Translations under genes and position numbers: made by a program
Assembly (NCBI GenBank): GCA_002838945.1
Contig: PGXB01000006.1
Coordinates: forward strand, 1 to 64,000
Origin: a candidate division Zixibacteria bacterium HGW-Zixibacteria-1
Lineage (GTDB): Bacteria > Zixibacteria > MSB-5A5 > GN15 > PGXB01
DNA: 64,000 bases
Direction: 5' to 3'
Notes under the pieces: generated by a model
Seen by the model: only the letters and a program-made list of their open reading frames with translations
Databases searched by the model: none
What the model was told of the DNA's origin: nothing
Shown here: piece after piece, positions 31,111-60,914 of the stretch
How the letters are laid out: every line of letters begins with the position of its first letter
Position numbering within the stretch: the first letter of the stretch is position 1

Positions 31111-32346
31111 ATGACAGAGAATAATATATCCGTTGTTGATATTAAAAGGATACCCGATGCGCCGTTATTCACGGTCGAAGTGAATGAAGAAGAAGCCGGA
31201 GTGCATGGCTGGATCGTAATTCATTCGCTTGGCGCCGGCGGCGCCTGCGGCGGGGTTCGGCTATATCCCGATGTTAATCGGGAAGAGGTTTACCAACTCG
31301 CCCGGGCCATGACCTATAAATATTCTTTTTTTGAAAAGGACACCGGGGGCGCCAAAGCGGGATTGCAAATGCCCTTCGATCTGCCGCCTGAAGAAAGAAA
31401 GCGGCGGCTGAGGATATTCGGCGCTCATATTTCGCCGCTTTTGCGCGCCAATATCTATCTGCCATGGACCGACATGAACAGCCGGATGGAAGATCTTAAC
31501 TGTATTCTGGAGGGAGCCGGAATCCCCGCCGGCGGCGGGGGTGATTCGGCTTATTATACGGCCCTTTCCACTTTTGCCGGGGTGATTGGGGCCGCCGAAT
31601 TTTATTCGATTCCACCCGACCGTTGCAAAATCACAATTGAGGGCCTTGGCAATGTCGGGCTATACCTTGCCCGCGAAATCGCGCGATGGGGAGGAAAGGT
31701 GATCGGGGCCACGACCCGTATCGGCGGCGTGGTCAATCCGAACGGGCTTGATATCGAACAGATTACGCAATTCCGCAAAGAAAAGGATGATGAGTGGGTA
31801 TTGCAGAAAGGGGACTGGGAGTCGATTACCCACGCGGAGCTGTTCGAATTGGGGATGGATATACATGTGCCCTGCGCCCGGGTCCATTCGTTGACGGAAA
31901 AAATTGCAGAAGCGTTAAAGGCCAGGGCCGTCGTGCCGGCCGCAAATGTTCCCTGTACACCGGGGGGCTCAGCCAAACTTATCGACAAGGGAATTCCCCT
32001 GCTGCCGGATTTCATTATTAATGGAGGCGGTATTGTCGGTACCGGTCTCGGCGAACTGGGCGGTTCCGATGAAGATGTCAGCAGGATTTTTTATGCCGAC
32101 TTCAAGGATATGATCGTCAGGCTGCTGCGAATGTCCGAGAAGAAGAAAATTTCCGCCGTCAGCCTTGCAGCCGATGAAAGTCACAGATATTTCAATCATC
32201 TCTGGCATTCCGGGCGAACCGAACCGGCCCTTAGTGATAAGATATACCGGGGATTGGAATGGCGCGGTCTGATGCCCAAAAGCTATCGCAAAGGAAAAGC
32301 TTCGGCAAAGCTGCATCGTATTATAAAAGAAAGATTTTCGGGTTAA
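31111..32346 (+). CDS. Glu/Leu/Phe/Val dehydrogenase family protein
   Basis: 411 residues; AAGGAG fits the ATG. N-terminal substrate domain with the glycine-rich loop LGAGGACGGVRLYP and the catalytic lysine in GGAKAGLQMP. A Rossmann domain follows (IEGLGNVGLYLAREIARWG), then AANVPCTPGG and DFIINGGGIVG. The early GGVR plus GGAKAG pattern is closer to leucine/valine-type than to hexameric glutamate dehydrogenases. It performs oxidative deamination, or the reverse, of an amino acid with NAD(P). The site is unusual for a catabolic enzyme: between polysaccharide deacetylase and flippase genes, with its own promoter. Confidence 0.88.
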   Translation: MTENNISVVDIKRIPDAPLFTVEVNEEEAGVHGWIVIHSLGAGGACGGVRLYPDVNREEVYQLARAMTYKYSFFEKDTGGAKAGLQMPFDLPPEERKRRLRIFGAHISPLLRANIYLPWTDMNSRMEDLNCILEGAGIPAGGGGDSAYYTALSTFAGVIGAAEFYSIPPDRCKITIEGLGNVGLYLAREIARWGGKVIGATTRIGGVVNPNGLDIEQITQFRKEKDDEWVLQKGDWESITHAELFELGMDIHVPCARVHSLTEKIAEALKARAVVPAANVPCTPGGSAKLIDKGIPLLPDFIINGGGIVGTGLGELGGSDEDVSRIFYADFKDMIVRLLRMSEKKKISAVSLAADESHRYFNHLWHSGRTEPALSDKIYRGLEWRGLMPKSYRKGKASAKLHRIIKERFSG

Positions 32347-44613: not shown

Positions 44614-45210
44614 ATGCGAAAATTGGTTAAATGGACAATCTATGGTATAATATATATCCTTGTTCTGCCGTTTGGCCTTCTGTCTCTGCTTTGGTACAAG
44701 ATATTCGGATCTCAGGCAATATATTATTGCTGCGCCGAAACATTCAGTCTGCTCCCGGTTCATCTGGGAATATTGGTGCGTTGTGCCTTCTATAATCAAA
44801 CGCTCAAAGAGGCCCACCATGATCTGGTTGTTCTTTTTGGGGGCTATCTGTCCAAGATGGAATCTCGAATCGGCAGAAAAGTGATCATCGCCGGGCATGC
44901 GACGATCGGTCTGGTGGATATCCGGGATTATGCAGCAATCGGTAATAACACCAATATTCTCTCCGGCCGACATCATCATAATTTTGAAGAAACAAGTCAG
45001 GAAGTTTTTTCCGGCGAAGACCGCTTTGCTGTTATTAAAGTCGGACAACATGCTTTTATTGGCGATAACAGCGTGATAATGGCACATATAGGAGATTATT
45101 CTATAATCGGCGCCGGCAGCGTTGTGGTCAAGGAAATTCCCGATTATGTTATTGCCGTCGGCAATCCGGCCAAAGCGGTGAAGGAACGACCGAGAAATGG
45201 GAAACAATAG
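44614..45210 (+). CDS. Left-handed beta-helix (hexapeptide) acyltransferase
   Basis: 198 residues; GGGAG eight bases before the ATG. A hydrophobic N-terminal segment (WTIYGIIYILVLPFGLLSLL) suggests membrane attachment. Hexapeptide turns begin about residue 85 (IGRKVIIAGHATIGLVDI, IGNNTNILSGRHHHNF, IKVGQHAFIGDNSVI, IGDYSIIGAGSVVVKEI) and end with the common IAVGNPAKAVKERP. The catalytic His is probably in SGRHHHNF. It most likely O-acetylates a sugar of the polysaccharide. Confidence 0.9.
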   Translation: MRKLVKWTIYGIIYILVLPFGLLSLLWYKIFGSQAIYYCCAETFSLLPVHLGILVRCAFYNQTLKEAHHDLVVLFGGYLSKMESRIGRKVIIAGHATIGLVDIRDYAAIGNNTNILSGRHHHNFEETSQEVFSGEDRFAVIKVGQHAFIGDNSVIMAHIGDYSIIGAGSVVVKEIPDYVIAVGNPAKAVKERPRNGKQ

Positions 45211-46231
45211 TCGGCCTGTACCAATTATGAAGCGGCTGATTATTAATTTTGTCCTGATTCTTGCGGACTGTCTTGGTCTAAACCGGCTTTTCAGGCGGTG
45301 GAATTCGGATAAAATCAGAATTTTAATGTACCACGGCGTTTCGGATGACAAACTGCCTTCATTTTACTGGACCCTCCTGGGCCGGGACAAATTTCTGCAA
45401 CAGATGGATTATGTGAAAAGAAAATACAATGTTGTTTCGCCTGAGTTTCTTTATAAAGAAGGTAATAGTGCCCCGAATAAAGTTGTCATTACTTTTGATG
45501 ACGGCCTGCTGAATAATCACACTGTTGTTCTCCCAATCTTAAAAAGTTATGAAATGCGCGCGATATGTTTTGTCCTGCCTTTGTTGTCCGAGAAAAACGA
45601 TCTTATGTGGACCGATAAATTATATGCCGTGCTTATGAGCTGCCGACCGGGTGATCTGGATTTTACCAATTTTGGCCTGGGAAAAATTGAAATCGGCTCC
45701 GACTTGGATAGGCGCGCCGATACCGTCAAGAATCTGCAAAATCAACTTAAGGCAGTTCCTCATTCCAGGCGTACGGATGTACTGAATAATATTTTTAATA
45801 AATTCGACCTTCTCGAAGGTGAGGATTATGCCGCTTTTAGATTAATGAACCGGGACCTGATCAAAGAACTCGCTCAAACCGATCAATATTTTATTGGCGC
45901 TCATACTAATTCCCACCCAATCCTTTCGACCATGACTCCCGATGAGCAGGAAAAAGAAATCAGATCAGGAATGGATAAGCTGGCCGAATGGGGAATAGAG
46001 TCTGTTCCGGTTTTTGCGTATCCCAACGGGCGGGCCGATGATTTTAATAATGAAACAGTGGCGCTGCTCAAAAAATATGATTTCAAAGCGGCCCTGACAA
46101 CCATTGACGGGCTTTATGATCCTTCGGACGACAAATTCCGGATAAAACGTATTAATATCGGGGCCGATACCGGAAAATGGGAATTTCGGGCGAGGCTTTC
46201 CGGCTTTTTTTACTTTTTGCAGGGAAGGTAG
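45197..46231 (+). CDS. Polysaccharide deacetylase family protein (second copy)
   Basis: 344 residues, overlapping the acyltransferase gene by 14 bases. CE4 motifs: ILMYHGVSDDKLP, VVITFDDGLLNNHTVVLPIL, the metal His pair IGAHTNSHPILSTM and VFAYPNGRADDFNNETV. It keeps the TFDDG form that the first deacetylase (TFDDAD, at 29835) has lost. The N-terminus has a weak hydrophobic stretch (LIINFVLILADCLG). ATG 45227 is a possible later start. Confidence 0.88.
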   Translation: MGNNSRPVPIMKRLIINFVLILADCLGLNRLFRRWNSDKIRILMYHGVSDDKLPSFYWTLLGRDKFLQQMDYVKRKYNVVSPEFLYKEGNSAPNKVVITFDDGLLNNHTVVLPILKSYEMRAICFVLPLLSEKNDLMWTDKLYAVLMSCRPGDLDFTNFGLGKIEIGSDLDRRADTVKNLQNQLKAVPHSRRTDVLNNIFNKFDLLEGEDYAAFRLMNRDLIKELAQTDQYFIGAHTNSHPILSTMTPDEQEKEIRSGMDKLAEWGIESVPVFAYPNGRADDFNNETVALLKKYDFKAALTTIDGLYDPSDDKFRIKRINIGADTGKWEFRARLSGFFYFLQGR

Positions 46232-46242
46232 GTTGGTGATCC

Positions 46243-47937
46243 ATGGCAGATGTTATAAAAATTGATTCTCTCGAGGGATTCGAGAAACTAATGCCGGTCT
46301 GGAGTGAGCTTCTGGAGCGGAGTGACTTTGATTCGATATTTATTACATATGAATGGCTCCATACATGGTGGCAGGTCTATGGTGGTTCGCACGACCTTTT
46401 TATTCTCGCTGTCAAAGACAGCGATTCCTTCATCGGCCTGGCGCCATTAATGCGGACCAATTATGGCGGTAAGAAAATAATTCAATTCATCGGCACGCCC
46501 AATGCCGATTACTGCGATTTCATAGGCACAAATAAGAATATTATCATCTCAAGTGTTTTATCTTTCCTGAAACAACATATTCTTGATTGGGACAGCATCG
46601 AATTTTCCCAGATACCGGAAGAATCAATATCACGCACAGCGCTTGAATCTTATGCCCGGCAGGAGAACATGCTCTTCAGAATGAAGGTCATTGAAACCTG
46701 CTATGCGTTTAAATATGATGGAGGCGAGGAGAAGCGGAAGGATTTTTCATTGAAACGGGGAACATCCTTAAAGAGATTCATAAATTTTTTCGAGAAAATG
46801 GATGGTCTCGGTCTGGAACATTATCGGGATGCCAATCAAATCGCTGAGATGCTGCCGCAATTCTATCACAGTCATTCCGTAAGATGGAAGGACCGCCTCG
46901 TCGGGGGGAAGTTCGAAAGCCGGGAAAACCGTCAGTTTCATGATGCCCTGGTTAAGGCTCTTGCCCCAAAGGTCATACTCCGACTGATAGTTCTCAATCA
47001 TGGGAATACCCCATTGGCTTATCTGTATGCCTTTGACTATAAGAAGCGCTTGAATCTTTATAATATCGCGACTGAGTCTTACTATGAAAAAAAATCGGCC
47101 GGTGTTATACTACTGCATTTATTGACTGAACAGACCGTGCGAGAGGGGCATGATGTAATCGACTTTTCAAGAGGCGAAGGCGGCCACAAGGAAAGATTTG
47201 TCAACAGCAGTTCAAATAATTATCAGATAAAAATTTATTCCAGCCGGCGGCCTTATTCAGCTGCCGGGTTTTATGATGGTATCAAAAAAAATCGGATAAT
47301 AAGAAAATTGATTGAAAATCATCGGACAAAGACTCTTAAGGCGGCATTCTCGGCTCATTATCACCGCGGCGGATTGGGTGGTATTATTGAACTCGGCCTG
47401 AAGAAATTATTTAAATCGATAATAGACTATAGATCGGTTCGAATATTCGGATTGGAGAAAGCTGTCCGGACATTCGAGGCCAGGGACGATACTCGAATTG
47501 AGCATCTGGGGCCGGAAAATATAGAAACAATTGGCTCCTTTTTGGGATTTGCCATGGATTCCGACAAATATAGGGCGATAATGGACAGGTTCTCCAACGG
47601 CGGTGAGTGTTATATTGTAAGGCATAGTGATACAATCGCTTGCATGGGGTGGGCGGTATTCGGAAGGGAAGTCATCCCGGAATGTGAATGTAAAATAGAT
47701 TTGGCCGCTGACGAGGTGATATTGTCCGACTTTTTTACATCGCCAATATTCCGCGGAAGGGGGTTCTTTGCATATTTGAGCGCTTTTGTTATTGAACAAA
47801 TGGCTTCACGGAATAAAAAGGTTCTTGCGCCCTGTTTTTCACATGACCTGAAATCGCAAAAGACCCTGGAGAAGATCGGATTTTCCCCGATTTCCAAGCT
47901 TCAAAGGCTTGATATTCTTGGGATCAGGCTGATTTAA
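46243..47937 (+). CDS. FemAB/BioF2-like acyltransferase fused to a GNAT domain
   Basis: 564 residues. The N-terminal part (about 1-340) matches the CelD/BcsL-type GNAT fold used in polysaccharide loci (YEWLHTWWQVYGGSHDLFIL, SFIGLAPLMRTNYGGKKIIQ, GTPNADYCDFIG, PLAYLYAFDYKKRLNLYNIA, VIDFSRGEGGHKERFVNSS). A linker follows, and residues about 405-560 form a second, shorter GNAT (YIVRHSDTIACMGWAVFG, DFFTSPIFRGRGFFAYLSAF with the CoA loop RGRGFF, LEKIGFSPISKL). Two acyl-transfer domains in one chain suggest two successive decorations or one catalytic and one binding domain. Confidence 0.82.
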   Translation: MADVIKIDSLEGFEKLMPVWSELLERSDFDSIFITYEWLHTWWQVYGGSHDLFILAVKDSDSFIGLAPLMRTNYGGKKIIQFIGTPNADYCDFIGTNKNIIISSVLSFLKQHILDWDSIEFSQIPEESISRTALESYARQENMLFRMKVIETCYAFKYDGGEEKRKDFSLKRGTSLKRFINFFEKMDGLGLEHYRDANQIAEMLPQFYHSHSVRWKDRLVGGKFESRENRQFHDALVKALAPKVILRLIVLNHGNTPLAYLYAFDYKKRLNLYNIATESYYEKKSAGVILLHLLTEQTVREGHDVIDFSRGEGGHKERFVNSSSNNYQIKIYSSRRPYSAAGFYDGIKKNRIIRKLIENHRTKTLKAAFSAHYHRGGLGGIIELGLKKLFKSIIDYRSVRIFGLEKAVRTFEARDDTRIEHLGPENIETIGSFLGFAMDSDKYRAIMDRFSNGGECYIVRHSDTIACMGWAVFGREVIPECECKIDLAADEVILSDFFTSPIFRGRGFFAYLSAFVIEQMASRNKKVLAPCFSHDLKSQKTLEKIGFSPISKLQRLDILGIRLI

Positions 47938-48138: not shown

Positions 48139-49107
48139 TTGGACTTTAATAAAAACAGCCTTCGTATTGACGCCGAAAAAGTTACGGCTGAGTTGTGTGA
48201 GTTGATTCTCAAACAGGTGCGCGGCACCATGAAAAAGGGCGGGGCGGTCGTCGGTATTTCCGGCGGGATTGATTCTTCCGTCGTGTCGGCCCTTTGTGCC
48301 AGAGCCCTGGGGCCTGAAAAGGTTCTGGGAATTATGATGCCTGAAAAGGAATCGGCCGGTGAAAGTAAGGATTTGGCGCAGATACTGGCCGGCAAATTCG
48401 GGTTTGAAACGACCGTCGAGACCATCTCAGGCGGTTTGGAGGGAATGGGCTGCTATGCCAGAAGGAACGAGGCTATTTTATCGGTCTTTCCGGATTTTAA
48501 TGAGGAAAAGGACAAATGCAAGATCACCATCCCGACCAATATTCTCGAAAAAGATACCTATAATTTCTTCACCCTGGTTGTTGAAAAGCCGGACGGGACC
48601 ATTTTATCAAAGCGCATGCCTCCGGCGGCCTATCTTCAGGTTGTGGCCGCCTCCAATTTCAAGCAGCGGCTTCGCATGACCACTCTTTATTACCATGCCG
48701 AGAGACGCAACTGGGCGGTGGCCGGCACCGGTAACAAGGATGAACATATGCAGGGATTTTTTGTTAAGTATGGCGACGGCGGCGCCGATCTCAAGCCGAT
48801 TGCTCACCTTTTCAAGATCCAGGTTTATCAATTGGCCGAGTACCTTGGCGTTCCGAAAGAAATAATCGGGCGGACACCAACCACCGACACATACAGCGCT
48901 GAAGTCACCCAGGAAGAATTCTTTTTCGGGCTGGATTTTTACCGGATGGATATGCTCTGGCATGCACTGGAGAATAATGTTTCTCCGGAAAAGGCCGCCG
49001 GTGTGCTCGGTTTGTCGGTCGAACAGGTAAAACGCGGTTACGCGAATATTGATAGAAAAATTAAAGCGACGGAATATTTAAGAATGCCACCGCTCGAGGT
49101 GGAATAG
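48139..49107 (+). CDS. NAD+ synthetase (NadE)-like ATP-pyrophosphatase, first copy
   Basis: 322 residues, TTG start after GAGGGA in an AT-rich 200-base leader. The adenylating P-loop is intact (GISGGIDSS, SGGIDS at 41-46), as are NFKQRLRM, GTGNKDEHMQGFFVKYGDGG and IAHLFKIQVYQLAEYLGVP. There is no nitrilase domain, so ammonia must come from elsewhere. It differs from true NAD synthetases in an extra 30-40 residues before the NxKxRxRM motif and in the acceptor loop (TPTTDTYSAEVTQEEFFFG instead of PTADL...DE..LG). It is first in a four-gene cassette with an acyl carrier protein, an acyl ligase and a second NadE-like gene, which argues for a role beyond NAD synthesis. Confidence 0.85.
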   Translation: MDFNKNSLRIDAEKVTAELCELILKQVRGTMKKGGAVVGISGGIDSSVVSALCARALGPEKVLGIMMPEKESAGESKDLAQILAGKFGFETTVETISGGLEGMGCYARRNEAILSVFPDFNEEKDKCKITIPTNILEKDTYNFFTLVVEKPDGTILSKRMPPAAYLQVVAASNFKQRLRMTTLYYHAERRNWAVAGTGNKDEHMQGFFVKYGDGGADLKPIAHLFKIQVYQLAEYLGVPKEIIGRTPTTDTYSAEVTQEEFFFGLDFYRMDMLWHALENNVSPEKAAGVLGLSVEQVKRGYANIDRKIKATEYLRMPPLEVE

Positions 49108-49175
49108 ACAATTATTTGTAATCGTTAAATTCATAAGTACGTATTCTTGGTAAGTAAGGAATAGAAAGGGAAGAC

Positions 49176-49439
49176 ATGGCCATTGCAGATCAGGTTCAGG
49201 TCCAGAAAAAGCTGAAAGATTTCATCACCGAAACATTCCTTGTGGGAAGTGATATAAGCAATATTGCTGAAAATGATTCTTTCATGGAAAAGGAAATTAT
49301 CGACTCCACCGGTGTCCTGGAATTGACCGCATTTGTGGAAACAGAATTTGGAATCAATATCGAGGACAATGAAATGATCCCGGACAATCTTGATTCCATC
49401 GCAAAACTGGTAAAATTTATTGCCAGGAAATCAGGCTGA
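49176..49439 (+). CDS. Acyl carrier protein
   Basis: 87 residues, four-helix carrier fold. S44 in IIDSTGVLEL is the phosphopantetheine site (DST in place of the usual DSL). Acidic helix II and III residues (ETEFGINIEDNEMIPDNLDS) are typical. A strong AAAGGGA precedes the ATG. It lies between the first NadE-like gene and the AMP-forming ligase, so it is a dedicated carrier for this cassette and not the fatty acid synthesis ACP (inference). Confidence 0.93.
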   Translation: MAIADQVQVQKKLKDFITETFLVGSDISNIAENDSFMEKEIIDSTGVLELTAFVETEFGINIEDNEMIPDNLDSIAKLVKFIARKSG

Positions 49440-49508
49440 TATTTCGAGCAGTTGGCTGCCCGGGTATCGGTACTCCCCGCATATCACAACCAGTAATGTG
49501 AATAATCC

Positions 49509-51095
49509 ATGAATATCTTTGGCATATTAGAAAATGGGGCCGCCGGATTTCCGGATAATTGCGCTATGGTTCATCAGGACCGCCGCATTACTTATCGGGA
49601 ACTTTATGGCCTTGCCGACAGAATCGGATCTTATCTCAGCGGAATTGATCTGAAGAAAGGTTCGCGGGTTGCGCTGCTTTTCGATAATTCGATAGAGTAT
49701 GTCGCTGTTTTCTTCGGTATTTTCAGGGCCGGATATGTGGCTGTGCCTGTCGACACTTCATTAAAGCCTGAGAAAATGGGCTTTATTATTAAGGACTGCG
49801 GGGCGGAAATACTGTTTCTCCAGTCGAAGTTCGTCAGGCATCTGGATAAAATTATCGGGGAATCTTCCTCTCTGACAATGGTTATTTCCAATAAGAAAAT
49901 CAAGCCGGAACGGAGCGGAATTAAAATGGCGGGCCTTGATGAAATACTGGAAAGCGGACCGGACCATAAAATTCATTCCGAATCATCGGAGTTACCAACA
50001 GGCAAAATGCCGACTGTGGAGGAAATGTACTCAAAGGTATCCGAATCACCCACCGATCTTGGGGCGATTTTTTATACCTCGGGCAGTACCGGGGCGCCCA
50101 AGGGGGTCATGTTGTCGCATCGGAACCTTGTTTCCAACACGGTTGCCACTGTCGATTATCTCAAGCTTTCCGAAAAAGATAAAATCATGGTGATCCTGCC
50201 GTTTTATTACATTTATGGCAACTCTCTGTTGCTGACGCATATTCTGATCGGCGGTACTCTGGTTATTGACAATAGATTCCTGTATCCCGAGGTGATTCTG
50301 GATACCATGGAAAAGGAAAAGGCAACCGGGTTCTCGGGGGTTCCATCGAATTTTATTATTCTGCTGAATAACTCGACTTTCCCGACTCGAAAGCTGGAGC
50401 ACCTTCGCTATTTCACGCAGGCAGGCGGGGCCATGGCGCCGGAAATTGTCAGGAAGCTTATCAATGCCTTTTCGCATAAAGAGATTTATATCATGTACGG
50501 CCAGACCGAAGCCGCTCCTCGGGTTTCCTGGCTGCCGCCGGAGCGGTTAATGGATAAAATCGGTTCGATTGGAATACCGGTGCCGCGAGTCGAGATAAAA
50601 ATAGTTGATGATAACGGTCAAGAATCTCCGCCCGGAGAATCAGGGGAACTGATCACCCGCGGCGACAATGTCATGCTGGGCTACTGGAATCAGCCCGAGG
50701 AGACGAAACAGGTTGTCCGGGACGGCTGGTTATATACCGGTGATCTGGCGCGTAAGGATGAAGAAGGGTATATATATATAACGGGGCGTAAAAAGGAAAT
50801 TATCAAGACGGGCGGCAACAGGGTCAGCACCAAAGAAATCGAGGAATGTCTTCTCGAGCATGAGAGCGTCCTGGAAACGGCTGTGTTCGGCATACCCGAT
50901 GAATTATTGGGCGAAGCCATTAAGGCTGTCGTCGTTTTGAAGGATGGCTGCCGAGCCTCCGTCAAAGAAATTCAGACTTATTGCAAGACCCGGCTGGCCG
51001 ATCATAAGTCACCCAAAGTAGTGGAATTCATGGAAGCTTTGCCCAAGTATCAATCCGGCAAAGTAAATAAGATGCTTCTCAAGAATATTGTATGA
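49509..51095 (+). CDS. AMP-forming acyl ligase (ANL superfamily)
   Basis: 528 residues. All ANL motifs are present: YTSGSTGAPKGVMLSH (A3), YIMYGQTEAAPRVSW (A5), DGWLYTGDLARKDEEGYIYI (A7), GRKKEIIKTGGNRVSTKEIE (A8) and the C-terminal catalytic lysine in PKYQSGKVNKMLL. It activates a carboxylic acid as its adenylate and should load it on the ACP encoded 69 bases upstream. It resembles the acyl-CoA ligases associated with PEP-CTERM/exosortase A exopolysaccharide loci (family knowledge; no exosortase is seen here). Confidence 0.92.
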   Translation: MNIFGILENGAAGFPDNCAMVHQDRRITYRELYGLADRIGSYLSGIDLKKGSRVALLFDNSIEYVAVFFGIFRAGYVAVPVDTSLKPEKMGFIIKDCGAEILFLQSKFVRHLDKIIGESSSLTMVISNKKIKPERSGIKMAGLDEILESGPDHKIHSESSELPTGKMPTVEEMYSKVSESPTDLGAIFYTSGSTGAPKGVMLSHRNLVSNTVATVDYLKLSEKDKIMVILPFYYIYGNSLLLTHILIGGTLVIDNRFLYPEVILDTMEKEKATGFSGVPSNFIILLNNSTFPTRKLEHLRYFTQAGGAMAPEIVRKLINAFSHKEIYIMYGQTEAAPRVSWLPPERLMDKIGSIGIPVPRVEIKIVDDNGQESPPGESGELITRGDNVMLGYWNQPEETKQVVRDGWLYTGDLARKDEEGYIYITGRKKEIIKTGGNRVSTKEIEECLLEHESVLETAVFGIPDELLGEAIKAVVVLKDGCRASVKEIQTYCKTRLADHKSPKVVEFMEALPKYQSGKVNKMLLKNIV

Positions 51096-51118
51096 TTTTT
51101 TATAGCAAGGAGTGAATA

Positions 51119-52132
51119 ATGAAATTTTCAAAGAATATCATCAAGACCGATCCGGAGTATGAAGCCGGCCTGGTTCAGGATTTTCTGGCCGCTCAGGTCA
51201 AAGGAATTCCCAAAAGGGACGGCATCATTGTTGGTGTCAGCGGCGGCGTCGATTCGGCGGTCGTGGCGGCATTGGCCGTTAGAGCGGTTGGCAAGGAAAA
51301 TGTCATGGGTATGATATTGCCGGAGAAGGAATCCAATCCGATCTCGGCCGAATATGCCCTCAAAGCCATCAACAAGCTCGGGATCAGACATCTCAAAGTT
51401 GACCTGACCGCTAATGTTGCAAGTTTTAAGGCCTATGAAAACCGCGATAAGGTTATCAAGGAAATATTTCCCGATTACGGCCCGAACCATAAATTCAATA
51501 TCCATTTGCCACAGAATCTCCTCGATGTCGACCGCTATAATTATTACACGCTTCGTGTCGATGATGGCAAAGGCAATGTTCAGGAAAAACGGCTTACCAA
51601 GAAGCAGTTACTTGCCATAACGGCCGCGGCTAATGTCAAAATCAGGTCAAGAATGATCGCACTGTATTATTGGGGAGAGCAATACAATTACATGGTGGCG
51701 GGAACGACCAATAAGACCGAATTCATTCTGGGAGATTACTGCAAATACGGCGATGGCGGGACCGATGTGGAATGTGTTTCGCATCTTTACAAGATGAATA
51801 TTTACGAATTGGCCGAGTATCTCGATGTTCCGGTCGAAATCCGTGAAAGGACACCCAGCCCGGATACTTTCAGTCTGCCGGTTTCTGATATCGATTTTTA
51901 TTTCTGCCTGCCGTTCCATCTTCTTGATCCTTTGCTATACGCCTGGGAATATGGTATCAGCGCCTTCGAAGCGGCCAAGGTCCTTGATTTAAGCGAGGAG
52001 CAGGTAAAGAGAGCCTTCCGTGACTTCCAGTCAAAGCACACTTCGACGGAACATATCCGGGTTCTTCCCGGGTCAATCGAGCGCGACTGGATCAAATATA
52101 CAGATCGGAAGGCACTCAAGCCGACGGTTTGA
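51119..52132 (+). CDS. NAD+ synthetase (NadE)-like ATP-pyrophosphatase, second copy
   Basis: 337 residues; AAGGAG before the ATG, 23 bases after the ligase gene. P-loop VGVSGGVDSAVVAAL (41-46), NVKIRSRM, GTTNKTEFILGDYCKYGDGG, VSHLYKMNIYELAEYLDVP. It shares with the first copy the insert before the NxKxRxRM motif and the altered acceptor loop (TPSPDTFSLPVSDIDFYFC). The two differ in most other places, so this is an old paralogue pair and not a recent duplication. A glutaminase domain is absent. Likely an amide- or C-N bond-forming enzyme acting with the ACP and ligase (inference). Confidence 0.85.
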   Translation: MKFSKNIIKTDPEYEAGLVQDFLAAQVKGIPKRDGIIVGVSGGVDSAVVAALAVRAVGKENVMGMILPEKESNPISAEYALKAINKLGIRHLKVDLTANVASFKAYENRDKVIKEIFPDYGPNHKFNIHLPQNLLDVDRYNYYTLRVDDGKGNVQEKRLTKKQLLAITAAANVKIRSRMIALYYWGEQYNYMVAGTTNKTEFILGDYCKYGDGGTDVECVSHLYKMNIYELAEYLDVPVEIRERTPSPDTFSLPVSDIDFYFCLPFHLLDPLLYAWEYGISAFEAAKVLDLSEEQVKRAFRDFQSKHTSTEHIRVLPGSIERDWIKYTDRKALKPTV

Positions 52133-52307: not shown

Positions 52308-53882
52308 GTGCGGAAAGGCCTGACATCGTTGAATAACAACCAGAAGAAAAATAATAAAAATAATAAGATTCCTGACCAGAGTCGGAATATGTTCGATGTC
52401 ACTGAAATATTAGCCATAGTCTGGCGCAGAAAGTGGCTCATCTTTCTCCCGGTAATATTGGTAACAGCGGTTACATTTGCGGGCTCATACCTGATTACTC
52501 CCGAATATGAATCCTCGGCGATTCTCTGGCTGGGAAACCCAGTTAAGCTGTCGGGCGAGTTGCAGCAGATGCTTGGAAGCGGCCAGCAGGGCTATCGCTC
52601 CATGCATGACGAACAACTTGAACTAAACAGTATGCAGAACGAGATCACCTCGTCGCCTTTTATCAGTCAACTGGCGACAAGGCTGAAACTGGACCAGGAT
52701 CCGACTCTTGAAAAGGATGCGCGAAAGGTCCTGGCGGCACAGCCCGAATTAGCGCTTGACCAGGTCAAACTTGATATTCTTACTAATAAGCTCAGGGATA
52801 AAATTGTTGTTACATATGCCGGCAAAGACCAGATCATGATAACGGTACAGTCAACCGACCCTTTCATAGCCCGGGACATGACCCAGACGTTGAGCGAAGT
52901 TTTCATGGCCGAAAAGATGAAACAGGAACTCGGGGTGGTCCGAATGTCCCAGGATTTCTCGTATGAACAATTGGCCAAATACGAAAAGGATCTTAATGAT
53001 AAAATAGACGCTAGGACCGAGTTGGAAAAGGGGTTCATGAAAATTCAACTCGACGAGGTGGTTGCTTCCGATGAAAACATCAAGGCGATAAGCTCTGAAA
53101 TCGAAAGCTCCAACCTTGACATTGAAGATGCCAAGGCCGAGGAACGCCGCCTGATTACGGAACTTTCCGAACAAGCCGGTCTGGCTGCCAGAAATCTGGT
53201 CCTGGCCGAATCGGACAATCTGAAAAGGCTCAATAAGGAGATTTCCGATCATCTCGAGACCGTAGCCAATTTAATGATCAAATATACCTGGAGCGCTCCC
53301 GAAATCCTGAATTACAAGACGCGGCTATATCGGATGTTGCGGGACATCGAGGATGAACACAAGCGCCTGGTTGGGCAGCAGTTCAATAATTATGACAGCT
53401 CCGTCCGCGACCTTTTGCTGCGTTTATTTAACATCCGCACCGAATTGGATGTCACCTATTCCAAGGTCAATCATCTTAAACTGGCCCTGGCCGACCTGAA
53501 CAGCAAAATAGGCATGAATCCGGAATATGCGGCCAGGCTTGATCAGCTTGACAGGGAGATCGTGGCAGCGCGGGATCTTCGCGATAAATTCAAATCACAG
53601 CAGGAAAGCTCTCAAATATCTCAGGCCTTATTGCGAGAGGCAAAATACAGGGTTATCGAACCGGCCAAGGTGCCGCTGGAGCCATTTAAACCTCAGCGCT
53701 CAAAGATTATTGTTCTCGGTTTTCTGCTGGGTATAGCCATCGGCGGCGGCGCCGTGCTTTTGACCGAGATGTTCGACAAATCATTCCGAAAGGTAGAAGA
53801 GGTCGAGCAACTGGTAGGATTCCCTGTTATTGGCGTCATTCCGCAGATTCAATCGATAAAGAAGTTAAAGCTTGGCAGTTAA
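52308..53882 (+). CDS. Polysaccharide chain-length determinant/export protein (Wzz/GNVR family)
   Basis: 524 residues; GTG start used, TTG 52329 and ATG 52389 possible. A basic, Asn-rich N-terminus is followed by membrane segment 1 (about 48-68, WLIFLPVILVTAVTFAGSYL) and a Wzz domain. A long coiled-coil region spans residues about 200-440. Membrane segment 2 (about 468-488, IIVLGFLLGIAIGGGAVLL) and a short cytoplasmic tail ending VEQLVGFPVIGVIPQ follow. No tyrosine kinase domain is attached, so a separate kinase would be needed if there is one. It closes the polysaccharide region. Confidence 0.9.
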   Translation: MRKGLTSLNNNQKKNNKNNKIPDQSRNMFDVTEILAIVWRRKWLIFLPVILVTAVTFAGSYLITPEYESSAILWLGNPVKLSGELQQMLGSGQQGYRSMHDEQLELNSMQNEITSSPFISQLATRLKLDQDPTLEKDARKVLAAQPELALDQVKLDILTNKLRDKIVVTYAGKDQIMITVQSTDPFIARDMTQTLSEVFMAEKMKQELGVVRMSQDFSYEQLAKYEKDLNDKIDARTELEKGFMKIQLDEVVASDENIKAISSEIESSNLDIEDAKAEERRLITELSEQAGLAARNLVLAESDNLKRLNKEISDHLETVANLMIKYTWSAPEILNYKTRLYRMLRDIEDEHKRLVGQQFNNYDSSVRDLLLRLFNIRTELDVTYSKVNHLKLALADLNSKIGMNPEYAARLDQLDREIVAARDLRDKFKSQQESSQISQALLREAKYRVIEPAKVPLEPFKPQRSKIIVLGFLLGIAIGGGAVLLTEMFDKSFRKVEEVEQLVGFPVIGVIPQIQSIKKLKLGS

Positions 53883-54302: not shown

Positions 54303-57300
54303 ATGCATTGTCGCTATTGTCCGCCGCCAGGCACCCTTAGAACCGAAAAGAGAAGACGATTGTGGCTTTCAATCATGCTGCTTCTTTTCGGATTTTTTAT
54401 TGGTGCACAGCTTAATGCAGCAACTGTCTTCACCGATAAGACAGACTATCCCCCGGATGACACGGTACTGATAACAGGAACCGACTTCTGGGCCAATGAG
54501 ACTGTCACCGTGCAGGTGACGCATTATGATGGAAATACCCCTGCAACGCCCGATTATGATCCCTGGAATACAGTGGCCAACAGCTACGGTATTTTCGATA
54601 CATACTGGGTGGTCCCCGAGGATGCATTGTCGGAGACTCTGCTGGTAACAGCCCAGGGTCAAACATCGGGGCTTATTGCAACCACAATATTTGCCGATGC
54701 CAATACCATTCTGGTTCCCTTGACAAATATGGAAGATCCGTTCTGTCCGGGTGATTCGTTCGAATATTGTGTGGCACTTTATCAGCGCTGTCCACGCAAT
54801 GTCTATGAGCCGCTTCCTAACCGGCCGATTTTGTTTTTCATAAACGACGGCACCTGCGGCGTTGATGTTTCCCAGGAAGCCGATGATACTGTCTGGACCG
54901 ACGAAAACGGCGTTGCATGTTTTAACACCGTTTTGCCGGATAATGAAGACCCCTATACAATTCGAGTTAAATTCCGCGGCGAAGACAAGCCGTACAGCTA
55001 TGAGCCTCCCAACAGCGCCTGCGATCCCACAGAGAGGGTAGCGTTATCAACTGCAAATGTTTGCGAGGACGTAGTGCTGGATTATTCTTCTCCGGCCTGC
55101 GGCGGAATTCCTCCGGTGGCGACCTGCCCCGGCGATACATCGGTTTTTCTCTGCAGTTTGGGTTCTGTGTGTATTCCCGGTTTTGGCGCGGCCGATCCGG
55201 ATGGCGACCTGGAATCGATCGTGGTTTCGCTCGGGACTCTCAGCAGCGGGACAGTATGTTTCACTCCGACCGGAGCGGGTTCTTATACGATAACATTGAT
55301 TGCGACCGATTCAACAGGGTTGGCGGACACCTGTGAAACAGTCGTAACAGTGGCGCTTAACAATGCTCCGGTATGCAGTTTACCCTCAGGCGGTAGTTAT
55401 TTCATTTGCGGCGACACAACTTTCAGTTTCCCGGTTTCGGCGACCGATGTCGATGGTAATCTGGTCGGTTGTACCAAGACTTCCGGTCCGGGAACCCTGT
55501 CAGGCGGTAATTGGACCTTCACAACCACCGGTCCGGGCGTTTACAGCGCCGGTCTTACGTGCACCGATGCCTGCGGCGCGGCGTGCTCCGGGACGGTCAA
55601 TATTACGGTTACTTATAATAATGCGCCGGTGTGCAATCTGCCCGCGGACGGCAGTTATTTTGTATGCGGCGATACAACTTTCAGTTTCCCGGTTTCGGCG
55701 ACCGATGTTAATGGTAATCTGGTCGGTTGCACCAAGACCACCGGCCCGGGAACCCTTTCGGGCGGTAACTGGACCTTCACGACCACCGGTCCGGGCGTTT
55801 ACAGCGCCGGTTTTATCTGCACCGATGCCTGCGGCGCGGCATGTTCCGGGACGGTCAATATTACGGTTAATTACAACAGCGCACCGGTTATCACCTGCCC
55901 GGCGAATATCTCTGTCGAGTGTAATGCCTCGACCGATCCTTCGAATACCGGCTCTCCCACTGTCACCGATGACAACGACCCGACTCCGGTCGTTGCTTAT
56001 TCCGACAGCGAGACGGCGGGAAGCTGCCCCCAGGAAAAGACCATAACACGAACCTGGACCGCAACAGATAATTGTGGGGCGGTCTCTCAGTGCCAGCAGA
56101 TCATTACGGTGGAAGATAACACGGCTCCGGTTATTACCTGTCCGGCCAATATAACAATTGAATGTAATGAATCCACAGATCCGACCAGTACCGGTTCAGC
56201 CACAGCGGTTGATAATTGTGATCCGGCTCCGGTCGTGGCATTTTCGGATGTGGCCAATAACGGCACGATTACACGCACCTGGACGGCAACCGATGCCTGC
56301 GGCAACAGTTCGCAGTGTACACAAACAATTACAATTGATGATACTACACAGCCTGTTATCACTTGTCCGGCTAATGTTACCATTGCCTGCGATGCTTCAA
56401 CTGATCCGTCCAATACCGGTTCGGCAACCGCCACCGATAATTGCGATGCCAATTCAGTAATCACCTATACCGACAGCGAGACGGCGGGAAGCTGCCCGCA
56501 GGAGAAGACGATTACAAGGACCTGGAAGGCGACCGATGATGCCGGTAATTTTGCGACTTGCCAACAGGTCATTACGGTGGAAGATAATATTGCTCCGGTC
56601 ATTACCTGTCCGGCGACTGCGACTGTCGAATGCGATGGGTCCATTGATCCTTCAGTGACCGGTTTAGCTACTGCGGTCGATAATTGTGATGCCTCACCGC
56701 AAATAACATATTCGGATAATAATTTTGGGGATACAATAACGCGGACATGGATCGCGACCGATGCCTGTGGCAACAGCTCTTCATGCCAGCAGTTGATAAT
56801 TTTTGAAGATACGACATCTCCTGTGCTGGTTTCGTGTCCTCCGGATCTGACCATCCAGTGCGACCAATCTCTGGCGCCGTCCATAACCGGTATGGCCACG
56901 GCTAGCGATAATTGTGATCCCAGCCCGGTAGTCACTTTTACCGACAGTGAAACTCCGGGTGGCTGCCCGCAGGAAAAAACCATTACAAGAACATGGATTG
57001 CGACCGATGCCGACGGCAATTCGGCGACAATATGTCAGCAGACAATAACCGTTATCGATACCACGCCTCCGGCGATTACATGTCCGGCCAATGTCGAGGT
57101 CGAATGCGGCCAGCCGACTGATCCGTCGAGTACCGGATATGCCACGGCGATCGATAATTGCGATCCTTCGCCGATAATAACCTATTCCGATACCAGAAAT
57201 AATGGTGTCACTACCAGACTCTGGACGGCGACCGATGCCTGCGGCAACAGCGCCCAGTGCACTCAGACGATCACTGTTGACGATACGACCCCGCCGGTCA

Positions 57301-60300
57301 TAACCTGTCCGGCCAATGTTACCATTGCCTGTGATGCTTCGACCGTTCCACCCAATACCGGTTCAGCGACAGCCACCGATAATTGCGATACCAGTCCGTC
57401 GATTACCTATACCGATAGCGAGACTGCCGGAAGCTGCCCGCAGGAGAAGACAATAACGCGGACGTGGACCGCCACCGATGCCGGCGGCAGTGGATCGAGT
57501 TGTCAACAGGTCATCACGGTCGTGGATGATACCGCACCGGTGATCACCTGTCCCGCCGATGTTACTATTGAATGCGATGAATCGATTGAACCGTCCAACA
57601 CAGGTATGGCTACGGCGGTCGATAATTGTGATTCGGCGCCGGCGTTGACATATTCCGATGTCGACAACGGCGGAAATATCGTTCGCACCTGGACGGCCAC
57701 GGATGCCTGCGGCAATAGTTCTTCATGCCAGCAGCTGATTAATTTCGAAGATACGACGCCTCCTGTGCTGGTTTCCTGTCCTCCCGATATGACAATACAG
57801 TGCGATCAATCTTCGGCCCCATCCTCCACCGGACAGGCCACCTCAGAAGATAATTGCGATCCTAATCCTGTGGTTACTTATTCCGACAGTGAAACTCCGG
57901 GCGACTGCCCACAGGAGAAGACTATTTCAAGAACATGGATTGCGACCGATGCCGACGGTAATTCGGCGACAATTTGCCAGCAAACAATTACCATTGTCGA
58001 TACCACGCCGCCGGCAATTACATGCCCGGCCAGTGTCGAGGTTGAATGCGGCCAGCCGAACGATCCGGATCACACCGGTTATGCGACGGCAGTCGATAAT
58101 TGCGATCCTTCTCCGATAATAACTTTCTCCGATACCAGAAATAACGGTGTCACCACCAGACTCTGGACCGCGACCGATGCCTGTGGCAACAGCGCCCAGT
58201 GCACGCAAACTATCACGGTTGACGATGGTACGCCACCGGTTATAACCTGCCCTGCGAGCATCACAGTCGAATGTGGGACTTCGACTGATCCGGCCAATAC
58301 CGGTTCGGCGACGGCCACTGATAATTGTGATCAGAATCCGGCTATTACAAAGACCGATTCAGAATCGGCCGGAAGTTGTCCTCAGGAGAAAGTCATAACG
58401 CGTACGTGGAAAGCAACCGACGGCAGCGGCAATTTCGCTGAATGTCAGCAAACCATCACCGTTGTGGATACGACACCGCCTGTAATTACTTGTCCGGGCG
58501 CTTATGTCGTGGGGTGCAGCGGATCGACCGATCCCGGCGTTACCGGGAATCCGACAATCAGTGATAATTGCGACCCAAGTCCGATAGTCAGCTATACCGA
58601 TTCGCTATCCGGGACCACAATCATAAGGAAGTGGACGGCGGCGGATCATTGCGATAATGCCGCCTTCTGTCTGCAGACAATAACCCAGGCTCAAAACTCG
58701 CCGCCCGTTGCGACCTGCCCGGGTAATACGACAATGTTCCTCTGTGCCCTGACCGATACGGCCCTGGCCGGCTTTACATACAGCGATCCCGATGATAATA
58801 TCGCAACGATCGATCTTGCCGGCGGAACGCTTGACGGCAATATCGCCCGCTTTACTCCGGTCGAGGGCGTCAATATTCTGACCCTGATTGTTCAGGACGA
58901 ATGCGGTGAAGTTGATTCCTGCACAACCGAGGTGCTGGTTACTTTGAATAATCCGCCTTATGCAGGGGTAGATTTCGACACAACGGTATTTAAATGCACC
59001 CGCGAGGAAATCTGTCTGACTGGTTTTGGCTGCACTGATTCGGATGACAATCTGGCCAGTTGCTATGCTGTCGGCGGCGTGCTCTCCGGCGGTGTGATTT
59101 GCTTTACACCCAACAACGGTGTAAATGTCATAAAGCTGATTGCGGTCGACGAATGCGGTGCGGCGGATACGGCTCTAATCACGGTCAATGCGATTTTGAA
59201 TAATGCGCCGTTTGTTACCTGTCCCGGTTTCCAAACTGAAAATGTCTTTGAGCTTCCGGCCGAAATCTGTGTCACCGGTTTCGGTTGCAGTGATCCTGAC
59301 GGCAATCTGACCAACTGCTCGGTTACCGTGACGGATGGCGACGGGAGCATTTCCGGCACGTTTGACGGCAATTCGGTTTGTTTCACGGCTGATGCCATGG
59401 GCATGTATACTATTATGTTGACAGCAACTGATCAATGCGGCGCCACCAGTTCCTGCTTTACGGAGGTCTTTGTTAAGAAGGTCTCCAGCTGCCCGATTGT
59501 CAGAATCGAAAAGACCCACAATACTTTCCAGGGTTATTTCGAGAATGTTTCGATTACGATAGAAAACAGCACCTATGACTTCGAGGGGTTTGACTTCCTG
59601 ATTGCCTATGACGCCTCGGCTCTCAGTGCGGTGTCGGTTACGGCAGGCGCATGGATTGAAGATTGTGAGTGGGAGTATTTCACCTACCGATTCGGGGTAA
59701 ACGGAAATTGCGGAAGCGCCTGTCCCTCGGGATTACTGAGGATCGTGGCAATTGCGGAAATGAATAACGGCGCTCATAGTCCACTCTGTTACGGGCCGCC
59801 CGATGGGGCCGAGTATGAGCTGGCCGTCATGCGATTCCTTGTCACGAACGACAGAACCTTCGAATGCCAGTATGTGCCCATATCGTTCTTCTGGAATGAT
59901 TGCGGTGATAATGCCATTTCCGGTATGAATGGAGAGATTTTATACGTAAACAACATTGTTTACGATTTCCTCGGAAATGTAATCTGGGATGAGGAAGATG
60001 ATGTAAATTATCCCGAAGGCAACAGAATTCCTTATATCGGAGCGCCTGATTTATGTCTTAATCCTGATCCGCTCAAGCCGAGCGCCGTTCGCTGTATCGA
60101 ATTCGTGTTCGGCGGGGTGGATATCATCTGCGCCGACAGTATCGATGCACCGGGCGACCTTAACCTGAATGGGGTTGCGAATGAGATTGCCGATGCCGTT
60201 GTTTTTACGAATTACTTTGTCTATGGCACAAAGGCATTTAATGTCAACGTCGAAGGGCAGAGAGCGGCTTCGGATGTCAATGGCGACGGTGTCATCCTGA

Positions 60301-60914
60301 CCGTATCCGATCTTGTATATTTAATCCGCATTATCTGCGGGGACGCTTTGCCGCTTCCTAAGGTTGCCCCTCATGTCAAGGCCGAATTCAGCATTCAGAA
60401 TGGTGTGGTTTCCGTTGAAAAGCCGCTGGGCGCCGCCCATATCGTTATCAAGGGCAATGCCAAAGTGGTTCTTGGCAAAGACGTTTCGCATATGGAAATG
60501 GCCTATAATTTCGACGGCGTCAACACCAACGTCCTGATTTACAGTTTCACTCAGGATTATTCGTTCAGCGGCGAAATCCTGGTTACCGACGGTGAAGTCG
60601 TCTCGATTGACGCGGCCGATTATGACGGCATTGCCTGTCAGGCGAAATTCCTGCCGGCTACATTCAGTCTGACCGGTTATCCCAATCCGTTTAATCCGGT
60701 CACCAATATTGAAATGAATATGCCGGTTGCAGCCGACTGGACAATCGATATTTATAATGTTGCCGGACGCAAGATCGCGGAATTCAGCGGCCACAATGAA
60801 GCCGGTACGGTAAAGATTCAGTGGGATGCCTCCGATCAGGCTTCGGGGATATACTTCTTCAAAGCCGAAGCCGGCCAATACTCGGCATCCAGAAAAATGC
60901 TTCTTTTGAAATAG
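54303..60914 (+). CDS. Giant secreted repeat protein (HYR-like repeats, cohesin-like domain, dockerin, FlgD-like sorting domain)
   Basis: 2203 residues; AAAGGG seven bases before the ATG. A long signal peptide (core LWLSIMLLLFGFFIGAQ) ends near residue 40. Order: N-terminal beta domains (40-350); two near-identical 86-residue units (353-524); twelve HYR-like repeats of about 78 residues (528-1460, pattern PVITCPANVTIECDASTDP then TATDNCD and TRTWTATDACGNSSQC); three further Cys-bearing Ig-like units (1460-1735); a cohesin-like domain (about 1740-1860); a dockerin (APGDLNLNGVANEIADAV, ASDVNGDGVILTVSDL); and a final FlgD-like domain (SLTGYPNPFNPVTNIEM, SGIYFFKAEAGQYSASRKML). The paired Cys in each repeat suggest disulfides. 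Probably a cell-surface fibre or adhesin. Confidence 0.9.
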   Translation: MHCRYCPPPGTLRTEKRRRLWLSIMLLLFGFFIGAQLNAATVFTDKTDYPPDDTVLITGTDFWANETVTVQVTHYDGNTPATPDYDPWNTVANSYGIFDTYWVVPEDALSETLLVTAQGQTSGLIATTIFADANTILVPLTNMEDPFCPGDSFEYCVALYQRCPRNVYEPLPNRPILFFINDGTCGVDVSQEADDTVWTDENGVACFNTVLPDNEDPYTIRVKFRGEDKPYSYEPPNSACDPTERVALSTANVCEDVVLDYSSPACGGIPPVATCPGDTSVFLCSLGSVCIPGFGAADPDGDLESIVVSLGTLSSGTVCFTPTGAGSYTITLIATDSTGLADTCETVVTVALNNAPVCSLPSGGSYFICGDTTFSFPVSATDVDGNLVGCTKTSGPGTLSGGNWTFTTTGPGVYSAGLTCTDACGAACSGTVNITVTYNNAPVCNLPADGSYFVCGDTTFSFPVSATDVNGNLVGCTKTTGPGTLSGGNWTFTTTGPGVYSAGFICTDACGAACSGTVNITVNYNSAPVITCPANISVECNASTDPSNTGSPTVTDDNDPTPVVAYSDSETAGSCPQEKTITRTWTATDNCGAVSQCQQIITVEDNTAPVITCPANITIECNESTDPTSTGSATAVDNCDPAPVVAFSDVANNGTITRTWTATDACGNSSQCTQTITIDDTTQPVITCPANVTIACDASTDPSNTGSATATDNCDANSVITYTDSETAGSCPQEKTITRTWKATDDAGNFATCQQVITVEDNIAPVITCPATATVECDGSIDPSVTGLATAVDNCDASPQITYSDNNFGDTITRTWIATDACGNSSSCQQLIIFEDTTSPVLVSCPPDLTIQCDQSLAPSITGMATASDNCDPSPVVTFTDSETPGGCPQEKTITRTWIATDADGNSATICQQTITVIDTTPPAITCPANVEVECGQPTDPSSTGYATAIDNCDPSPIITYSDTRNNGVTTRLWTATDACGNSAQCTQTITVDDTTPPVITCPANVTIACDASTVPPNTGSATATDNCDTSPSITYTDSETAGSCPQEKTITRTWTATDAGGSGSSCQQVITVVDDTAPVITCPADVTIECDESIEPSNTGMATAVDNCDSAPALTYSDVDNGGNIVRTWTATDACGNSSSCQQLINFEDTTPPVLVSCPPDMTIQCDQSSAPSSTGQATSEDNCDPNPVVTYSDSETPGDCPQEKTISRTWIATDADGNSATICQQTITIVDTTPPAITCPASVEVECGQPNDPDHTGYATAVDNCDPSPIITFSDTRNNGVTTRLWTATDACGNSAQCTQTITVDDGTPPVITCPASITVECGTSTDPANTGSATATDNCDQNPAITKTDSESAGSCPQEKVITRTWKATDGSGNFAECQQTITVVDTTPPVITCPGAYVVGCSGSTDPGVTGNPTISDNCDPSPIVSYTDSLSGTTIIRKWTAADHCDNAAFCLQTITQAQNSPPVATCPGNTTMFLCALTDTALAGFTYSDPDDNIATIDLAGGTLDGNIARFTPVEGVNILTLIVQDECGEVDSCTTEVLVTLNNPPYAGVDFDTTVFKCTREEICLTGFGCTDSDDNLASCYAVGGVLSGGVICFTPNNGVNVIKLIAVDECGAADTALITVNAILNNAPFVTCPGFQTENVFELPAEICVTGFGCSDPDGNLTNCSVTVTDGDGSISGTFDGNSVCFTADAMGMYTIMLTATDQCGATSSCFTEVFVKKVSSCPIVRIEKTHNTFQGYFENVSITIENSTYDFEGFDFLIAYDASALSAVSVTAGAWIEDCEWEYFTYRFGVNGNCGSACPSGLLRIVAIAEMNNGAHSPLCYGPPDGAEYELAVMRFLVTNDRTFECQYVPISFFWNDCGDNAISGMNGEILYVNNIVYDFLGNVIWDEEDDVNYPEGNRIPYIGAPDLCLNPDPLKPSAVRCIEFVFGGVDIICADSIDAPGDLNLNGVANEIADAVVFTNYFVYGTKAFNVNVEGQRAASDVNGDGVILTVSDLVYLIRIICGDALPLPKVAPHVKAEFSIQNGVVSVEKPLGAAHIVIKGNAKVVLGKDVSHMEMAYNFDGVNTNVLIYSFTQDYSFSGEILVTDGEVVSIDAADYDGIACQAKFLPATFSLTGYPNPFNPVTNIEMNMPVAADWTIDIYNVAGRKIAEFSGHNEAGTVKIQWDASDQASGIYFFKAEAGQYSASRKMLLLK
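55359..55874 (+). repeat. 258-bp tandem duplication inside the giant gene
   Basis: Unit 1 is 55359-55616 and unit 2 is 55617-55874. The encoded 86-residue units differ at nine positions by my count, and long runs of DNA are identical, so the duplication looks recent or is kept alike by conversion. Confidence 0.9.
56352..58235 (+). repeat. 942-bp higher-order repeat of four HYR-like units
   Basis: Units 3-6 (56352-57293) and 7-10 (57294-58235) match one to one in order. The marker starts are VTIACDAST, then VECD or IECDES, then SCPPD(L/M)TIQCDQS, then VEVECGQP. Unit 11 begins the same cycle again at 58236. Both blocks are exactly 942 bp (314 residues). Synonymous changes are common, so the copies are older than the 258-bp pair. 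Confidence 0.85.

Follow-up and report, generated by a model that had tools for sequence, protein, structure and literature searches.

A NadE-like protein pair encoded with an acyl carrier protein and an acyl ligase in a zixibacterial polysaccharide locus: a variant of the unit on S. meliloti pSymB and a possible acyl-carrier amidation system

The closest described relatives of the gene unit reported here are located on pSymB of S. meliloti. The acyl-CoA ligase homologue SMb20650 encoded there is reported to be cotranscribed with the acyl carrier protein (ACP) SMb20651 and, in E. coli, to acylate the holo form of this carrier, whereas growth on oleate is not supported by SMb20650 [PMC7232532]. 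On the pSymB sequence, the corresponding locus has the gene order asnB - ACP - ligase - nadE, and since its ligase gene is the only PF00501 gene of pSymB, it must by elimination be SMb20650. The NadE homologue of this locus is 48% identical to the first NadE-like protein (NadE1) of the present unit. AsnB-type sets are also found on plasmids of Mesorhizobium, Shinella, a record labelled Roseateles, and (unannotated) Azospirillum. For the partners NadE and AsnB, no description was found in the literature searched, which was limited to papers free of subscription, and the search for PRK00876, or for an NAD synthetase together with an exosortase and an ACP, likewise yielded nothing.

The window, i.e., the whole analysed stretch of 64,000 nucleotides from a Zixibacteria genome, contains four genes of this kind in tandem on the plus strand. 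NadE1 (48139-49107, with a TTG start), a NadE-like N-type ATP pyrophosphatase of the NF002048/PRK00876 family, is followed after 68 bases by a dedicated acyl/peptidyl carrier protein with a DSTG phosphopantetheine site (49176-49439), after a further 69 bases by an ANL acyl-AMP ligase (49509-51095), which is predicted to charge the ACP with an acid, and after another 23 bases by a second NadE-like enzyme, NadE2 (51119-52132), in the slot that is held by AsnB in most relatives. The order of the four open reading frames, their common strand, the short gaps, and the setting in a polysaccharide locus agree with a preliminary description made from the sequence alone. Its statement that such a unit had not been described before holds, as far as found, for the NadE and AsnB partners, but not for ACP and ligase, for which SMb20651 and SMb20650 are published. 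The window unit is a variant of a partly known unit. The nearest NadE1 sequences (88% identical) come from Candidatus Zixiibacteriota drafts.

NadE1 and NadE2 are 40% identical to each other and reach 435 and 345 bits, respectively, with NF002048/PRK00876 (cut-off 313). One NF002048 protein above the cut-off was also observed in the archaeon Methanosarcina acetivorans, a control genome. Both window proteins retain SGG(I/V)DS and KYGDGG, as had been noticed beforehand, and the SGGxDS loop with the ATP/Mg residues is kept in 96-100% of the NadE1 and NadE2 groups. In each of the two groups, 98-100% of the sequences preserve the equivalents of E. coli R140, T160, E165, K173, D180, and K189. The identity of these residues in E. 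coli was confirmed on the K-12 sequence (NC_000913), and the site list follows UniProt, with R140, K173, and D180 as contacts to deamido-NAD. As these three contact residues are preserved in the family, there is still room for a pyridine-nucleotide-like acceptor.

The acceptor loop, which reads PTADL in canonical NadE, is changed to PTTDTY in NadE1 and mostly to PSPDTF in NadE2, and its DT(Y/F) part is found in 97-100% of each group; the change to DT(Y/F)S had been recognised in the preliminary description. H260-K261 is replaced in the family, and the canonical NadEs of Zixibacteria lack this HK, too. Y106, R109, R159, K175, and K307 are invariant in NadE1 and NadE2 and absent from canonical NadE, as is a family-specific insert (positions of about 104-166 in NadE1). 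The shared insert claimed previously is thus real, but with around 50-60 residues it is larger than the 30-40 residues given then. AlphaFold2 models, for which plasmid sequences were left out of the input alignments, are confident (pLDDT of 90 for NadE1 and 87 for NadE2) and exhibit the NadE fold in both cases, and the insert of NadE1 takes the form of three beta strands (126-159) in its model. The top structural matches of both models are NAD synthetases, among them the NMN synthetase of Francisella (3fiu), with Foldseek TM-scores by query length of up to 0.67 and 0.64 for the two proteins. NadE1 is predicted to be an ammonia-dependent amide-forming enzyme.

The name given to the family suggests NAD synthesis as its function. 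However, a separate canonical nadE is situated on another contig of the window genome (G000:C17:15868-16674), and a separate canonical or glutamine-dependent NadE was found in 70 of the 73 genomes of this phylum group that carry NF002048 proteins. In the other three carriers (G052, G070, and G112), no canonical nadE was detected; G070 and G112, both of which contain NadE1, are drafts that are more than 90% complete. When placed in a tree alongside 22 canonical proteins, NadE1 and NadE2 together occupy a branch of their own (99% SH-aLRT, length 1.44), within which NadE2 separates from NadE1; the E. coli row of this tree is a poorly cut sequence with a very long branch. Indirect evidence comes from S. 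meliloti, for which good growth in minimal salts media is reported even in strains devoid of both pSymA and pSymB [PMC4207669]. The normal nadE in the genome, the separate branch, and the growth of these strains make NAD synthesis by the family unlikely. Both the nadE search and the tree including the two proteins support the earlier claim that they are not the NAD synthase of this genome, and we consider it very likely that they belong to a dedicated unit and do not act as the NAD synthase of the cell. The NCBIfam name 'NAD(+) synthase' of NF002048 is probably wrong for proteins of this type.

Concerning the two central genes, the ACP has no match in Pfam at 1e-3. Its scores with the ACP families of NCBIfam (AmcB 51 bits, OlsHI ACP 49 bits) are below the respective cut-offs, and it also matches peptidyl carrier proteins in the PDB; the carrier site DStG is conserved among 73 relatives. 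The ligase matches PF00501 with 308 and PF13193 with 72 bits, its ANL motifs are intact, and R300, R338, and K518 are conserved. With TIGR03098, the family of exosortase-associated ligases, it reaches 396 bits and thus remains below the cut-off of 592, so that it was not assigned to the XrtA set. Its subtype is characterised by LPFYYIYG and MYGQTEAAPR, with a conserved Arg following the YGQTEA motif. At the position of the A4 Asp of NRPS, the window ligase has Ile, whereas Asp is present in the ligases of pSymB, of KSB1, and in some others, so that an alpha-amino acid is neither favoured nor rejected as the ligase substrate. Two ligase subtypes, with and without A4 Asp, occur in the unit (L080:13424-14971 versus 49509-51095 of the window), and the Arg after YGxTE is kept in both of them. 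Malonate as a substrate was rejected as being without support, since the malonyl-CoA synthetase motif ERYGMTE [PMC7232532] is replaced by MYGQTEA in the window ligase.

In all, 179 loci were mapped by means of profiles. Partners were counted within 4.5 kb of NadE1, and a NadE1 locus was regarded as well flanked if at least 4.5 kb were available on both sides (n = 34). At each of these 34 loci ACP or ligase is present, and at 25 of them both are; AsnB occurs at 16, NadE2 at 8, neither of the two at 10, and both together at none. Of all members of the unit, NadE1 is the most constant. In the KSB1 and Anaerolineae loci, the gene order is shuffled and the gene set retained. In 12 of 13 genomes, picked mostly for having no ligase visible beside NadE1, a ligase exists elsewhere. 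As this set is shared by loci of Zixibacteria, KSB1, Anaerolineae, and Alphaproteobacteria, a chance arrangement is excluded. Conservation of the cassette in relatives is hereby established; of the four-gene arrangement as originally proposed, however, the NadE pair represents only the minority variant, AsnB being the commoner partner.

Some loci depart from this pattern: at L141 (G106), L167 (G100), L168 (G101), and L169 (G099), a NadE2-like gene, an ACP, and a ligase occur with no NadE1 nearby. In 15 genomes, the gene immediately preceding NadE1, in the same orientation, encodes a secreted, lipoprotein-like protein of around 280-300 residues (L143:360-1301 and another 14 loci like it; median distance to NadE1 133 bases); the one member compared with Pfam had no match there.

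The AsnB partner, a protein of 660 residues recognised from its sequence, scores as an asparagine synthase, and the partners keep the glutaminase Cys2 and SGGxDS. Near NadE1, AsnB is found at 28 and NadE2 at 14 of all 70 loci, and never both. The idea that the unit is basically built around a NadE pair was discarded, because AsnB takes that slot at more loci. The exclusion extends to entire genomes: of the 14 genomes that lack NadE2, 12 possess a close AsnB (63-97% identity), which is located away from the unit in four cases, as compared to 1 of 14 genomes with NadE2 (Fisher p 7e-5, calculated across related and hence not independent genomes). The single exception, G014, possesses NadE2 (G014:C212) plus a close AsnB of 69% identity (G014:C306:4586-6556), and in G005 and G042 a close AsnB is absent genome-wide. 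No AsnB-type amidotransferase was matched in the window genome at E 1e-20. Independent switches between AsnB and NadE2 amount to 3 on supported branches and 5 on all branches, which is too few for significance; almost none of the independent pairs point in the wrong direction. That NadE2 has functionally replaced AsnB is the somewhat more probable interpretation. In vivo, free ammonia is the substrate of single-domain NadE [PMC3376133], such that this exchange would change the nitrogen donor; it would then constitute an example of a pathway swapping glutamine for free ammonia.

Upstream of the unit, the window contains glycosyltransferases, a polysaccharide deacetylase (45197-46231, plus strand; PF01522 70 bits), and a fusion of FemAB-like and GNAT domains as a candidate acyltransferase (46243-47937, plus strand; PF13480 72 bits, PF00583 24 bits). 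Downstream, a chain-length determinant of the Wzz type follows (52308-53882, plus strand; PF02706, and TIGR03007 with 156 bits, below the cut-off). Wzz is situated near NadE1 in 19 of 70 loci. A FemAB/GNAT gene adjoins the unit also in L039/L124 and in L077, in L039 again with a deacetylase ahead of FemAB/GNAT and NadE1, but it is not universal. In three plasmid loci, a GNAT-like gene of approximately 360 residues lies 5-16 bases upstream of asnB; support for this family from Pfam is weak (E 0.004-0.07 for two members), and homologues are found near the units of S. meliloti and M. ciceri. Polysaccharide genes are absent near some plasmid copies, and no annotated sugar genes exist within 12 kb of the M. 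ciceri plasmid copy. Given the GNAT-like and FemAB neighbours, a coherent though hypothetical end step would be the N-acylation of an amino sugar: the deacetylase could expose the amino group, and a FemAB/GNAT or GNAT-like transferase might plausibly act after the unit.

The same region includes a gene of the Glu/Leu/Phe/Val dehydrogenase family (31111-32346) and, after Wzz, a gene for a secreted protein of 2203 residues (54303-60914) with HYR and PKD domains, which ends in a Por secretion (type IX) sorting tail. Matches to the exosortase family (PF09721) lie outside the window on other contigs (G000:C10:26562-27320 and G000:C5:97823-98260).

Taken as a whole, these features are best explained by a conserved acyl-carrier amidation unit, an interpretation to which we assign about even chances. 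As reported for the S. meliloti homologues, the ANL ligase would activate a carboxylic acid with ATP and load it on the holo-ACP. Either while bound to the carrier or immediately before it is loaded, the acid would be amidated, with NadE1 adenylating a carboxylate that is then attacked by ammonia; a second amidating enzyme would be NadE2 (free ammonia) in the window and AsnB (glutamine-dependent) in most relatives. Finally, the neighbouring GNAT or FemAB-like transferase would move the amidated acyl group off the ACP and onto an amino sugar in a surface polysaccharide. The formation of a C-N bond on a carrier-bound acid, as proposed in the preliminary description, is the reading that fits best; amidation of an ACP-bound cargo in particular might equally well be true or not, and the transfer of the amidated group to polysaccharide is put forward tentatively. 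In its widest form, the proposal is possible rather than probable: the family named NAD(+) synthase would as a whole serve acyl-carrier amidation, with both NadE1 and NadE2 acting on ACP-bound acids, and in one bacterial lineage a NadE paralogue would have replaced AsnB, and thereby glutamine by free ammonia, giving polysaccharides with acyl groups that are amidated doubly, or amidated and then converted.

Other functions have to be weighed against amidation on the carrier. NadE1 and/or NadE2 might amidate the uronic acid of a sugar nucleotide to a uronamide, with only ligase and ACP handling a separate acyl group. AsnB-type amidotransferases of polysaccharide loci have been compared with the uronamide-making WbpS [PMC3684757]. 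In outline a nucleotide-diphosphate uronic acid may resemble deamido-NAD, three contact residues to which are kept, and genes similar to UDP-sugar dehydrogenases occur near the unit in 5 genomes; NadE1, however, tracks ACP and ligase rather than sugar enzymes, and the M. ciceri plasmid copy is devoid of annotated sugar genes in its neighbourhood, so that uronamide formation appears unlikely. Equally doubtful is a different adenylation chemistry on the carrier-bound acid, either with a nucleophile other than ammonia or by conversion of an amide made by AsnB or NadE2 to a nitrile or amidine in the manner of QueC. A unit with two adenylating enzymes calls for two reactions, and the invariant residues and the insert that canonical NadE lacks would suit an altered reaction, whereas nothing positive points to another nucleophile. 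Least of all do we expect additional NAD(+) synthases, present here by chance or for a local supply of NAD. The name of NF002048, the conserved ATP site along with some deamido-NAD residues, and the two genomes more than 90% complete without another detected nadE would fit such a function, but the canonical nadE in 70 of 73 carriers, the strict linkage of NadE1 to ACP and ligase, the occurrence of two paralogues side by side, the tree, and the growth of pSymB-less S. meliloti in minimal medium led us to dismiss an extra NAD synthase copy as the main reading.

If acyl-carrier amidation is correct, it would provide a function for a widespread family annotated as NAD(+) synthase. NadE would join the small number of amide-forming enzymes with a possible role on carrier proteins, and the S. 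meliloti operon with its published ACP and ligase would be explained.

In comparison with known systems, the ammonia-dependent NadE (PF02540) resembles NadE1 and NadE2 in fold, SGGxDS loop, Mg/ATP residues, and probably in ammonia as donor; it differs in its separate branch, the PTADL loop, the missing insert of 50-60 residues, and the lack of linkage to the unit. The structurally neighbouring NMN synthetase of Francisella demonstrates that the acceptor can change in a NadE homologue [PMC3376133]. In this case, however, the acceptor is still a pyridine nucleotide. To our knowledge, the enzyme has no carrier protein or ligase as partner.

The XrtA/PEP-CTERM exopolysaccharide set comprises a TIGR03098 ligase and an AsnB-type amidotransferase (TIGR03108), and families of this system also match Wzz and glycosyltransferases of the window locus. 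The ligase and AsnB of the units score well, but below the cut-offs (399-476 bits for the unit AsnBs with the amidotransferase family), and the exosortases of the window genome lie on other contigs; we know of no NadE in that set. OxyD and the glutarimide AMT are AsnB-like malonamyl-carrier amidotransferases of polyketide pathways, with the acid on CoA or ACP. This likeness concerns the mode of working only: no polyketide synthase was seen at the unit, and NadE-like enzymes are not known to us from those pathways.

The S. meliloti-type unit is most similar to that of the window, with the same kinds of genes on one strand in tight spacing and a NadE 46-50% identical to NadE1 in the rhizobial copies. 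An NF002048 protein, an ACP, and an ANL ligase are common to both, and AsnB is missing from the window unit. Despite this general similarity, there are two clear differences: the S. meliloti-type unit possesses AsnB where the window has NadE2, and the pSymB ligase belongs to the other subtype, with LPLAFDYG and YGLTECKR and with Asp at the NRPS A4 position.
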